Positions 9,713 to 22,070 of a DNA stretch of 64,000 nt are shown in pieces. The stretch is from Streptomyces sp. NRRL F-6676 (GTDB taxonomy: Bacteria; Actinomycetota; Actinomycetes; Streptomycetales; Streptomycetaceae). Location: contig NZ_JOHS01000001.1 in assembly GCF_000725625.1 (NCBI RefSeq), forward strand, positions 62,001 to 126,000, read 5' to 3'. The notes under the pieces are model-generated. The model was not told where the DNA came from and did no database searches. It saw nothing but the letters and a program-made list of their open reading frames with translations. Position 1 is the first letter of the stretch; every line of letters starts with the position of its first letter. The position numbers and the translations under genes were made by a program.

Positions 9713-9726
9713 TTGTAACGTTTCAA
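9713..9726. promoter_or_regulatory. LacI-type operator upstream of GH3 gene
   Basis: TTGTAACGTTTCAA, a 14-bp near-perfect palindrome centred on CG, contains the island-wide core AACGNTTCAA at 9717-9726. It sits 10 nt before the GH3 start codon, where a bound repressor would block transcription or initiation. Confidence 0.75.
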
Positions 9727-9798
9727 TCGGAGGGGGACGTATGAGACGGCGCGGTGGCAGCGTGCGGCCGGTCCTTTGCGTGTCCGGTCGTTCTGCGG

Positions 9799-9858
9799 CG
9801 CCGCGTAGATCGGTCTACGTCGCGATGCGAGGCACAACGTAGACCGATCTACGCGGCG
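9799..9858. promoter_or_regulatory. Twin operator: 22-bp perfect inverted repeat with palindromic arms
   Basis: Arms 9799-9820 and 9837-9858 are perfect inverted copies with a 16-nt spacer. Each arm holds a near-palindrome centred on CG, GTAGATCGGTCTAC (9805-9818) and GTAGACCGATCTAC (9839-9852), 34 bp apart centre to centre, about three helical turns. It lies between the divergent GH3 and LacI genes. The best reading is a pair of LacI-family operators different from the AACGNTTCAA type, most simply bound by the regulator encoded at 9986. Confidence 0.75.
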
Positions 9859-9878
9859 GCACAATGGACCGGATGAAA

Positions 9879-9888
9879 AACGCTTCAA
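9879..9888. promoter_or_regulatory. AACGNTTCAA operator copy
   Basis: AACGCTTCAA in the same GH3/LacI intergenic region, 98 nt upstream of the LacI start codon. It is identical in core to the sites at 12147 and 14820. Confidence 0.65.
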
Positions 9889-9985
9889 CCTCTCCCGTCA
9901 GCCCGTCGGCGCGGTTTCCACGTCCCTGCCCGGGCCGCCACCGCGTACGATCGCCCGGCGGGACGGCCCGCGCGAGGGTGAGGGA

Positions 9986-11026
9986 GTGGTCGTGGGGCAG
10001 GGTGGGCGTCGGCGGGGGGTCACGATCCAGGATGTCGCCCGTGTCGCCGGGGTGTCCCGGGCCGCCGTGTCCAAGGTCATCCGCGATGCCGCGGGGGTCA
10101 GTCCCGCCATGCGTGCGCGCGTCCGGGCGGCCATCGAGGAACTCGACTACCGGCCCAGCGTGGCCGCCCGCGCGTTGCGCGGTGCCAGTTACACCCTGGG
10201 CCTGGAGGTCCCGCATCCGGGCAACCGCTTCCTCACCCAGATCATCGACGGCGCCACGCAGGCGCTGGAGGGCAGTCCCTTCCAGCTCATCATCGCGCCG
10301 GCCGACGGTGGGCGCGGCTACGGCGCCATCGAGGCCCTCGCTGACCGCCAGGCCGACGGGATCGTGGTCGTCTCCCCCCGGGTGGAGCCCGCCTGGCTGG
10401 AGCGGCTCGCCGAACGGCTCCCCGTGGTGATGCTCGGTCGGCACGACCGGGCCGCGCACTACGACACCGTCGTCGGCGACGACGTCAAGGGCACCCGGGA
10501 CGTGATGGACCACCTCCTCGCGCTGGGCCACCGCCGCATCACCCACCTCACCGAGGACGAGGAGCTGACCGCGCCCGGCTCGGGCACCCCCCACGCCCTC
10601 CGTCTGGAGACCTACCGGGCGTGCATGGCCGCCGCCGGACTCGCCGCGCACATCCGGGTGGCGCGCACCGGGCAGACCGAGCGGAGCGCCTACGACACCA
10701 CGCGCGCCCTGCTCGACGGGCCCGACCGCCCCACGGCCCTGTTCGCCGCCCATGACCAGCTCGCCGTCGGCGCCCTGGCCGCTCTCGCCGACATGGGTCT
10801 GACCAGCGACGACGTCTCACTCGTCGGCTACGACGACACCGACTTCGCCGCCCACCCGGCCGTCTCCCTCACCTCCGTGGACCAGTCGGGCGCCGAGATG
10901 GGACGGCAGGCGGTCACCATGCTGCTGGACCGGGTCGAGGGAGGACGGACCCAGGCGCGGCAGCACCGCATCATCCCGGAACTGCGCGTACGCCGCTCGA
11001 CGGCCCCGCCGCCCGCCGGGGACTGA
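9986..11026 (+). CDS. LacI-family transcriptional regulator (first)
   Basis: A 346-residue LacI/GalR-type repressor. Seen: the N-terminal helix-turn-helix VTIQDVARVAGVSRAAVSKV (about 11-30), hinge region YRPSVAARALRG, and a periplasmic-binding-protein-like effector domain ending in GYDDTDFAAHPAVSLTSV. The recognition helix reads SRAAVSKVIRD instead of the common xTVSxVLN, and the hinge has VAARAL, which suggests a non-standard operator. The palindromic pair at 9799-9858 just upstream is therefore the natural autoregulatory site. It is divergent from the GH3 gene, whose expression it probably controls. GTG start at 9986 with GAGG/AGGGA upstream. The effector sugar cannot be read from the sequence. 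Confidence 0.9.
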   Translation: MVVGQGGRRRGVTIQDVARVAGVSRAAVSKVIRDAAGVSPAMRARVRAAIEELDYRPSVAARALRGASYTLGLEVPHPGNRFLTQIIDGATQALEGSPFQLIIAPADGGRGYGAIEALADRQADGIVVVSPRVEPAWLERLAERLPVVMLGRHDRAAHYDTVVGDDVKGTRDVMDHLLALGHRRITHLTEDEELTAPGSGTPHALRLETYRACMAAAGLAAHIRVARTGQTERSAYDTTRALLDGPDRPTALFAAHDQLAVGALAALADMGLTSDDVSLVGYDDTDFAAHPAVSLTSVDQSGAEMGRQAVTMLLDRVEGGRTQARQHRIIPELRVRRSTAPPPAGD

Positions 11027-11088
11027 CCCCGCCCGGGCACGTCTTCACGCCTGCCCCGTCCGTGCGCGTACCCGCCCGCCCCCGCCTC

Positions 11089-20877: not shown

Positions 20878-20949
20878 GCACAAACTGTTACATGATACGA
20901 ATAAAGGATGGGGGATTGGATGCCGCCATCCGTGGGGCGGCCCCCGGGC

Positions 20950-21639
20950 TCACGGCACGTCGTCGAGGCCGTGCAGTTCGTTCAGCGGCGTGCCCGCCGC
21001 CCAACGCCTCAGCCGCGGCCCGTCGATGAGATGCACTCCGCCCTGCCGGTGCGCCCACAGCGCGTCCCGCCGGCTGAAGGCGCCCCGGTGCACCACCATC
21101 AGCAACGGCTGCCGCGCGCGCGGCCCCGCCGCCGCGCACAGCGGGTCCTCGCCGGGGAGCGGTTCGGCGACGGGGCGGAACGCCACCTCCAGCAACCGGC
21201 CCCCGGCGTCCCGCGCCACCAGTCGCGGAAGATCCGGCTGTGACGGCCGCCGCACCCGCCACCCCTCCCGTCGCAGCATCCTCGCCACCGCCTTGACCAG
21301 TCCCGCCACGTCCAACTCCGCCAGTTCCTCGGGGGTGTAGTAACCGCGCCGACGGCGGGCGAGCGGACGGCGGTACAGGAAGAGCATGAGGAGCGCCAGG
21401 GCCACCACGACCGCGATCGCCGTCGGGGCGACGGCGCCGCCGGCCCGGTACAGCAGGGCGAACCCGGCCACCAGCGCGCACGCGAGCACCACCAGCGCGG
21501 CGAACGCGGGCAGCACGTCCCGCAGTTCGGGACCGTAGCGCCCCTGCGCCCGCAATGTGTCGACCGTGCGCCGGCGGCGGGCGCGCCACGGGCCGCCCGT
21601 CGTCTCCCACGGCCCCCTCCGTGTCTCCACGGCCGGCAC
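20950..21639 (-). CDS. Membrane-anchored restriction-endonuclease-like (Mrr-type) protein
   Basis: About 229 residues. Two adjacent membrane helices are seen (VLPAFAALVVLACALVAGFALLY and APTAIAVVVALALLMLFLY), followed by a basic RRPLARRRRG stretch and a C-terminal domain of the Mrr / PD-(D/E)xK fold: ELDVAGLVKAVARMLRREGWRV, then PRLVARDAGGRLLEVAFRP in the place of the D...ExK core, then QPLLMVVHRGAFSRRDALWA. The catalytic Lys is not obvious, so nuclease activity is uncertain. Similar membrane-bound proteins are common in Streptomyces; their role is unknown. The GTG at 21639 with GGTGGGG upstream is preferred; a far upstream ATG at 21843 gives an unlikely Pro/Arg-rich extension. Confidence 0.7.
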   Translation of the reverse strand: MPAVETRRGPWETTGGPWRARRRRTVDTLRAQGRYGPELRDVLPAFAALVVLACALVAGFALLYRAGGAVAPTAIAVVVALALLMLFLYRRPLARRRRGYYTPEELAELDVAGLVKAVARMLRREGWRVRRPSQPDLPRLVARDAGGRLLEVAFRPVAEPLPGEDPLCAAAGPRARQPLLMVVHRGAFSRRDALWAHRQGGVHLIDGPRLRRWAAGTPLNELHGLDDVP

Positions 21640-21833
21640 CCCCCACCCGCGCTCACCCGAGCGGACGTTCGCATGGCTACCCGGGCGGGAGGGGCGAACC
21701 GCGGGGCAAGAGGACAACCGGCCATCAATCTGGCCGAACCGTTGCGCAGGGGCGGTGGGAGAGGGGAGCAGTCGAGGGTGCGGGCGGTGTGCGCCGGTGT
21801 CGCCCCTCCGGGCGGGGACGCCTGCTGGTATTG

Positions 21834-21843
21834 AACGATTCAA
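21834..21843. promoter_or_regulatory. AACGNTTCAA operator copy, upstream of GH127 operon
   Basis: AACGATTCAA inside the 15-bp near-palindrome ATTGAACGATTCAAT (21830-21844). It lies about 170 bp upstream of the promoter at 22014 and might act as an auxiliary operator for looping. Confidence 0.6.
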
Positions 21844-22013
21844 TTCCTGGGGTGGGTCCCGGTCGCGGCTCTGGTGCGGCGTCCCGGCCGACGGATCGCC
21901 GTGCTGCGTTCTGATGCCGACAGGTCAAACAACAGGCGAGGTCAGGGGATTGGGCTCGCACAAATCGCCCCGCCGCGGACGGTGCGGCCCAACATCGTCC
22001 GCTGTGAGAAGTC

Positions 22014-22042
22014 TTGACGCTCGCCGTGTGCCCACTTACCGT
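22014..22042 (+). promoter_or_regulatory. Promoter of the GH127-GH106-GH78 operon
   Basis: TTGACG at 22014-22019, a 17-nt spacer and TACCGT at 22037-22042. An AACGATTCAA operator follows 18 nt after the -10 box, closely matching the layout of the ABC importer promoter at 15043. Confidence 0.55.
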
Positions 22043-22060
22043 CTCCGCCGGACGACATAA

Positions 22061-22070
22061 AACGATTCAA
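22061..22070. promoter_or_regulatory. AACGNTTCAA operator downstream of GH127 promoter
   Basis: AACGATTCAA in the context ATAAAACGATTCAACAC, immediately downstream of the proposed promoter. It resembles the GH78 upstream site AAAAACGCTTCAAT. Confidence 0.65.

Follow-up and report, generated by a model that had tools for sequence, protein, structure and literature searches.

Predicted RhaR-type operators at an accessory glycoside cassette and a core rhamnosidase operon in Streptomyces sp. NRRL F-6676, with a second RhaR-like protein as candidate repressor

Results

Two glycoside gene sets and a recurrent word

The window analysed here, a 64,000-nucleotide stretch of the Streptomyces sp. NRRL F-6676 genome (contig NZ_JOHS01000001.1, positions 62,001 to 126,000), carries two sets of glycoside genes, near whose promoters the 10-mer AACGNTTCAA recurs. 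The first set (gene span 7466-18306; hereinafter the cassette) encodes a GH3 glycosidase, the regulators LacI-1 and LacI-2, a GH78 alpha-L-rhamnosidase and a sugar importer, and the second is a GH127-GH106-GH78 gene row that likely forms one operon. The two are separated by unrelated genes, since a LysR regulator, an acetyltransferase, a transglycosylase-like protein and a gene without Pfam match intervene. Pfam searches and N-terminus readings uphold all gene assignments of an earlier note made on this DNA, including the lack of an evident signal peptide in the cassette GH78. Both LacI-1 and LacI-2 combine a LacI helix-turn-helix with a periplasmic-binding-protein-like domain, each above the Pfam cut-offs. 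The best NCBIfam model for GH3 is an exo-alpha-(1->6)-L-arabinopyranosidase (361 bits, below the cut-off of 1300). Together with GH78, GH106 and GH127, this distant likeness suggests rhamnose- or arabinose-bearing plant glycosides or glycans as the substrate.

Direct search places AACGNTTCAA seven times in the window, at 9717, 9879, 12147, 14820, 21834 and 22061 on the forward strand and at 15083 on the reverse strand, exactly where the earlier note had put it. The note had also expected the word to be very rare in such DNA, and 100 dinucleotide-preserving shuffles of the window yield it 0.04 times on average and at most once. Across the whole genome (8.12 Mb, 166 contigs) it occurs 17 times, compared with four for the reversed control pattern, and seven of the 17 matches fall within one 12.4-kb stretch. 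As claimed, the sites lie outside accepted genes, save that at 12147, which shares bases with the stop codon (TGA) of GH78 (12153-14792, minus). Mechanical open reading frames (ORFs), in other frames or with far-upstream starts, do cover some sites; for example, the TTG-started ORF 20950-21843 (minus) extends to the 21834 site. Here a shorter gene is favoured because of an in-frame ATG at ~21672 and a one-base gap near 21750 relative to a second genome of the species (G935, see below); the Pfam scan of the correct frame finds no family for this gene (20950-21672).

Of the ten matches elsewhere in the genome, a pair immediately precedes a GH106 alpha-L-rhamnosidase gene that is not linked to the window and lies on contig C11; a spurious ORF on the opposite strand covers one of this pair. 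Seven others have the sequence GAACGNTTCAA, whose codons spell E-R-F-K/N; five of these are in mechanical ORFs and two (C12, C87) were judged coding from the E-R-F-N reading alone. The tenth, AACGGTTCAA (L034 4881, contig C46), is ~50 bp upstream of a ROK regulator gene with adjoining ABC transporter genes, and was not counted as a regulon member, having G at the N position of the word and an imperfect left arm.

The word as one arm of a predicted RhaR-type operator

When its left flank is added, the word becomes the pseudo-palindrome TTGAANCGNTTCAA with core TGAANCGNTTCA, that is, one arm of a predicted RhaR-type LacI operator (Table 1). Of 12 positions, one is mismatched at 9713, 12143 and 15083, two at 14816 and 22057, and three at 9875. 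The palindrome with central CG that marks LacI-type operators is thus present at 9713, 12143, 14816, 15083 and 22057, weak at 9875, and odd and non-canonical at 21831, where a 13-bp inverted repeat (TTGAA-CGA-TTCAA) has a spacer of 3 bp rather than 4. The earlier note was right to see part of a LacI-type operator in the word, while it missed both the identity of that operator as one of a rhamnose repressor and a separate palindrome pair next to LacI-1. Two of the predicted operators lie 11 (importer) and 14 (GH127) bases downstream of -10-like hexamers at 15066-15071 and 22037-22042, and a repressor bound there would block transcription if these hexamers, recognised by consensus only, are used.

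The separate pair consists of two 16-bp CGTAGAYCGRTCTACG palindromes between GH3 and LacI-1, 34 bp apart and free of mismatches nowhere else in the genome. Two sites similar to CGTAGAYCGRTCTACG lie upstream of GH3 in a related genome with the cassette (G994, see below). The pair likely represents LacI-1 operators, so that in the GH3/LacI-1 region a pair for LacI-1 would be flanked on both sides by the members of a RhaR-type pair.

Table 1 Features and predicted operators of the window (positions count from its first letter)
Feature	Position	Strand	Basis or remark
Accessory cassette (GH3, LacI-1, LacI-2, GH78, importer)	7413..18360		Gap in blastn against G935; alignment ends 7412, resumes 18361; junction read
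GH3 glycosidase, signal-like N-terminus	7466..9703	-	Pfam GH3 N, C, Fn3-like
Operator TTGTAACGTTTCAA before GH3	9713..9726		Word at 9717; G994 counterpart TTGAAACGTTTCAA
LacI-1-type operator CGTAGATCGGTCTACG	9804..9819		No-mismatch occurrence only here and at 9838 in genome
LacI-1-type operator CGTAGACCGATCTACG	9838..9853		No-mismatch occurrence only here and at 9804 in genome
Weak operator GAAAAACGCTTCAA before LacI-1	9875..9888		Word at 9879; poor left arm, 3/12 mismatches
LacI-1 regulator	9986..11026	+	Pfam LacI + Peripla_BP
LacI-2 regulator, RhaR-like, 331 aa	11089..12084	-	Pfam; tree; relatives
Operator TTGTAACGCTTCAA before LacI-2	12143..12156		Word at 12147; identical sequence before LacI-2 in G994
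GH78 alpha-L-rhamnosidase, no evident signal peptide	12153..14792	-	Pfam; N-terminus
Operator TAAAAACGCTTCAA before GH78	14816..14829		Word at 14820; G994 counterpart GTGAAACGCTTCAA
Promoter-like TTGACA-17-TAGTTT, importer genes	15043..15071	+	Consensus match only
Operator TTGAAGCGTTTCAT, just downstream of importer promoter-like element	15083..15096		Word at 15083; G994 counterpart TTGAAGCGTTTCAG
Sugar importer	15159..18306	+	Permeases 15159-16115, 16112-16933 (BPD_transp_1 twice); solute-binding protein ~17038-18306 (SBP_bac_1)
Operator-like inverted repeat TTGAACGATTCAA	21831..21843		Word at 21834; within 18-bp run unchanged in G935
Promoter-like TTGACG-17-TACCGT, GH127 operon	22014..22042	+	Consensus match only
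Operator ATAAAACGATTCAA, just downstream of GH127 promoter-like element	22057..22070		Word at 22061; unchanged in G935
GH127-GH106-GH78, likely one operon	22085..31647	+	Pfam; blastn: present in G935
GH127	22085-24844	+	True start perhaps 22199 (N-terminus reading)
GH106	24905-28348	+	Pfam
GH78 of operon	~28399-31647	+	Pfam

The same predicted operator type at rhamnose catabolic loci

A search of the genome collection confirmed 267 relatives of LacI-2, and the best 80, at 79 loci, are at most 52% identical to it. Many of these genes adjoin rhaI, rhaEW and rhaB, and since 37 of the 79 loci have a readable rhaI promoter, we regard them as RhaR loci rather than LacI-2 loci. Perfect TGAANCGNTTCA occurs within 300 bp in 27 of the 37 rhaI promoters of other genomes and in 10 of 4570 windows that were taken from these loci as controls, the count covering loci that have a rhaI match near its start and at least 250 bp upstream. 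Two RhaR loci, L043 and L044, have a GH78-matching gene (checked by Pfam in L043 only) that is preceded by TTGAATCGTTTCAT, which reads ATGAAACGATTCAA on the other strand. A second palindrome with a GG/CC centre in place of CG is found at L195 8920-8933 and at 18 of the 37 rhaI loci (14 as TGAAAGGNTTCA, four on the other strand); in the promoter region of rhaI, ~65-180 bp separate it from the RhaR operator with the CG centre, and it is a possible looping partner.

The host has its own rha locus on contig C36, comprising RhaI, RhaEW and RhaS above NCBIfam cut-offs, rhamnulokinase-like and mutarotase-like genes below them, and RhaR; RhaEW is the single match above the family cut-off in the genome. 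The rhaI/ABC intergenic region contains GTGAAACGATTCAG. Among the host paralogues of LacI-2, this resident RhaR comes first at 49% identity, the next being at 38%. A LacI-family RhaR regulon of Actinomycetales was predicted by comparative genomics in 2013, and passages of that study include an ABC system and putative rhamnosidases in it for several genomes (PMC3870299).

LacI-2 orthologues form a clade apart from Streptomyces RhaR

We examined 59 LacI-2 relatives of at least 40% identity, that is, the 79 loci minus one with too short an upstream region and 19 below 40%. The palindrome, at no more than 2 of 12 mismatches, lies within 300 bp upstream of the relative's own gene in 29 of the 59, compared with 97 of 7068 control windows.

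Twelve relatives reach 78-85% identity and come from Streptomyces wherever the source is named. Close orthologues were rare in four overlapping genome draws, for which five candidates per genome were scored, so that misses are possible. The genus draw (392 genomes, limit E 1e-90) gave LacI-2 itself and two matches at 52%, and the family draw (394 genomes, limit E 1e-98) gave LacI-2 itself and one orthologue at 85%, in G994. No orthologue beyond the window's own appeared in the class draw (394 genomes) or the relatives draw (395), and plasmids gave no LacI-2 match. In G935 and G994, every candidate was scored.

In a 65-row tree, the 28 LacI-2 orthologue rows (at least 59% identity, a threshold of our choosing) form one clade with support 100/99, apart from Streptomyces RhaR. 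LacI-2 may descend from RhaR, because some rha-locus rows branch before both when LacI-1, a long branch that leaves the root unsure, is used as root. All 27 rows of the LacI-2 group in which the recognition helix can be read show S[IVMT]ATVSN, while the A position is occupied by G in 16 of 17 rha-locus rows; A is also present in two ungrouped rows, P0032 and P0036. The one rha-locus row that departs from G, from a Saccharopolyspora locus (L050), has TTAAAACGATTCAA nearby, yet L075 with G has ATAAAACGTTTCAA, indicating that this residue alone does not set the site. Judged by sequence, LacI-2 seems to be more than just another RhaR. Within the LacI-2/RhaR tree, P0032 pairs with a LacI-2 relative of 52% identity from a contig (L036; 69% GC, possibly misbinned) that bears the label Candidatus Melainabacteria.

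A same-species genome lacks the cassette and keeps the core sites

G935, assigned to the same species, is a single contig and 99% complete. By blastn it lacks the whole cassette interval (Table 1) and has both flanks, including the GH127-GH106-GH78 operon. None of its 59 first-look candidates, all scored, is LacI-2, the best being RhaR at 49%. Both AACGATTCAA sites of the operon are retained, 227 bp apart as in the window, and so are both sites at the unlinked GH106 gene, 66 bp apart as in the host. These four core sites do not need LacI-2, because G935 keeps all of them without LacI-2 or the cassette. Within 21749-21990, 56 of 242 bases differ between the two genomes, and 21831-21848 is the longest unchanged run; 22056-22084 is also unchanged, as part of a conserved promoter block.

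The cassette in other genomes

In G994, a LacI-2 orthologue (85% identical) is found together with GH3, GH106, LacI-1, GH78 and the importer genes, and 39 kb from this genome align to the cassette of the window and not to its flanks. Operators are present at GH3 (TTGAAACGTTTCAA), LacI-2 (TTGTAACGCTTCAA), GH78 (GTGAAACGCTTCAA) and the importer (TTGAAGCGTTTCAG). An Actinoplanes locus (L089) groups a LacI relative, an importer, GH78 and GH3, with related sites before the LacI gene (ATGTAACGATTCAA), the importer (TTGAAGCGTCTAAA) and GH3 (TTGAAACGTTTAAT). The cassettes of G994 and L089 and the rarity of close orthologues in the draws favour gain of the cassette in the lineage of the window over its loss in G935.

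Other features of the window

Genes with AMP-binding/carrier and condensation domains, as in non-ribosomal peptide synthesis, lie at 35088-38201, ~3.4 kb past the glycosidase operon. At 59309-59322, an inverted repeat (TTGAAC-CC-GTTCAA) precedes a small predicted gene at 59382 by ~60 bp.

Discussion

We propose, with a probability of roughly 70%, that the sites are RhaR-type operators, read by LacI-2 at the cassette and by RhaR, perhaps together with LacI-2, at the core operon, with LacI-1 acting on a palindrome of its own. Binding, repression, effectors and the sharing of sites by two repressors are what we infer from sequence, and the scheme would run as follows. LacI-2 most likely binds the five cassette sites. 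Its binding would keep GH3, LacI-1, its own gene, the cytoplasmic GH78 and the oligosaccharide importer silent, and it would be released by a sugar that contains rhamnose or by a product of that sugar. The two GH127-operon sites and the two at the unlinked GH106 gene are most likely read by the resident RhaR, and LacI-2 may read them too; these core sites would serve genes for secreted rhamnosidases, which the species can possess even where the cassette is missing. LacI-1 would read the different palindrome at the GH3/LacI-1 divergent promoter. LacI-2, which the earlier note had named as the best reader, is the best candidate for the five cassette sites, given the palindromes upstream of its relatives and the four operators kept with its G994 orthologue; the nomination does not extend to the core sites, which G935 keeps without it.

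That the resident RhaR alone reads every site, with LacI-2 reading something else or idle, is unlikely. The identical operator core and the presence of RhaR in both the host and G935 speak for it, but in G994 as well as in the host LacI-2 occurs alongside these operators and has one before its own gene, and its orthologues retain a distinct recognition helix. The cassette sites also lean to TTG...CAA ends. In a flank-blind scan, limited to sites with a central CG and no more than one mismatch (hence without 9875 and 14816), an inner C/G at N is found in 7 of 9 cassette sites vs 6 of 32 rha sites (P 0.002), and an outer T-A in 11 of 18 cassette vs 11 of 64 rha half-sites (P 0.0005).

The earlier note had placed all seven sites under LacI-2 as a single regulon, a reading we now consider improbable. 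All seven do share the common word, LacI-2 has a site of its own, and about half of the scored relatives have the palindrome upstream of their gene. Retention of the core sites in G935 without LacI-2 and the same operator type at the resident RhaR nevertheless argue against sole control, as does the N position, which holds A in both core words of the window but is C or T throughout the five of the cassette.

LacI-1, although located among the sites, was rejected as reader of AACGNTTCAA and is a very improbable one, being preceded by two palindromes of other sequence, mismatch-free nowhere else, with a similar pair upstream of GH3 in G994. Chance or base composition has a negligible claim: codon usage can generate the word, as seven of the ten other genome matches illustrate, but seven copies in place of 0.04 and sites kept in G935, G994 and L089 are not what it would produce.

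Several points weigh against the two-repressor scheme. At the rhamnose loci, 10 of the 37 rhaI promoters lack perfect TGAANCGNTTCA, the 27 that have it are not independent events because the loci are mutually related, and the host rha operator ends in CAG and therefore contains no exact AACGNTTCAA word. As for LacI-2, 30 of its 59 relatives lack a site close to the start of the gene itself, and among the 29 positives some have a GG centre. In G994, 17 matches of the word stand against 14 of the control pattern, so that it is not a rare word in that genome as a whole. The unchanged 18-bp run at 21831-21848 has P 0.006 by random placement but was picked post hoc, and the 13-bp repeat alone would persist with P ~0.03 (0.77 to the 13th). 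Site conservation at the unlinked GH106 gene and in the rha region says little, because these regions are 93% and 97% identical overall between the host and G935, and the four core sites could persist in G935 through recent loss of the cassette. The difference between cassette and rha sites is modest and is treated as a hint: when identical sequences are counted once, P becomes 0.008 (inner) and 0.054 (outer), the latter no longer significant, and two of the nine cassette sites, both at the permease junction, lie in coding sequence; if this pair is dropped, the counts become 5/7 and 11/14.

If the two-repressor scheme holds, a word count becomes a concrete network. Its natural control is a pair of genomes from one species that have the same target sites and differ in whether the second repressor is present. 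How gained regulators fit into the networks already in place could then be tested directly, and a group of enzymes for plant glycans would come under likely control by rhamnose. A broader possibility, to which we give rather less than even odds, is that a transferable glycan cassette, whose repressor has an operator matching that of the resident RhaR, joins the resident regulon in both directions as soon as it arrives, RhaR holding the cassette and LacI-2 holding the older secreted rhamnosidases. If true, importer and cytoplasmic rhamnosidase would be wired to the older secreted rhamnosidases with no new site needing to evolve.

What appears to be new is a second repressor of RhaR-like type, together with its cassette and the operator that it probably shares, and among the titles and abstract starts listed by a literature search none was recognised as describing this arrangement; a RhaR regulon with importer and rhamnosidases had already been predicted in passages of PMC3870299.

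The closest solved LacI-family structures by sequence are CcpA, RbsR and PurR, of which CcpA aligns over residues 4-326 of the 331 in LacI-2, covering the DNA-binding and sugar-binding-fold domains. Their effectors and operators differ from those here. Set against LacI-family operators in general, as outlined in passages of PMC4052901, the 21831-21843 repeat is odd at 13 bp, and a second site in the host rha locus has a CC centre. The nearer comparison is with RhaR of Actinomycetales, in the passages of PMC3870299 likewise a LacI-type regulator with a palindromic operator. The operator TGAANCGNTTCA assigned to LacI-2 agrees with the sites of rhaI promoters, the set with which it was compared. 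Those passages make no mention of a second RhaR-like repressor with a common operator. While a RhaR gene is expected in a rhamnose catabolic locus, and the host RhaR stands beside rhaI and rhaEW on C36, LacI-2 sits with GH3, GH78 and the importer. It differs from the RhaR regulon described there in lying outside the rha locus, in having orthologues that form their own clade, and in being encoded on a cassette that is absent from a genome of the same species.

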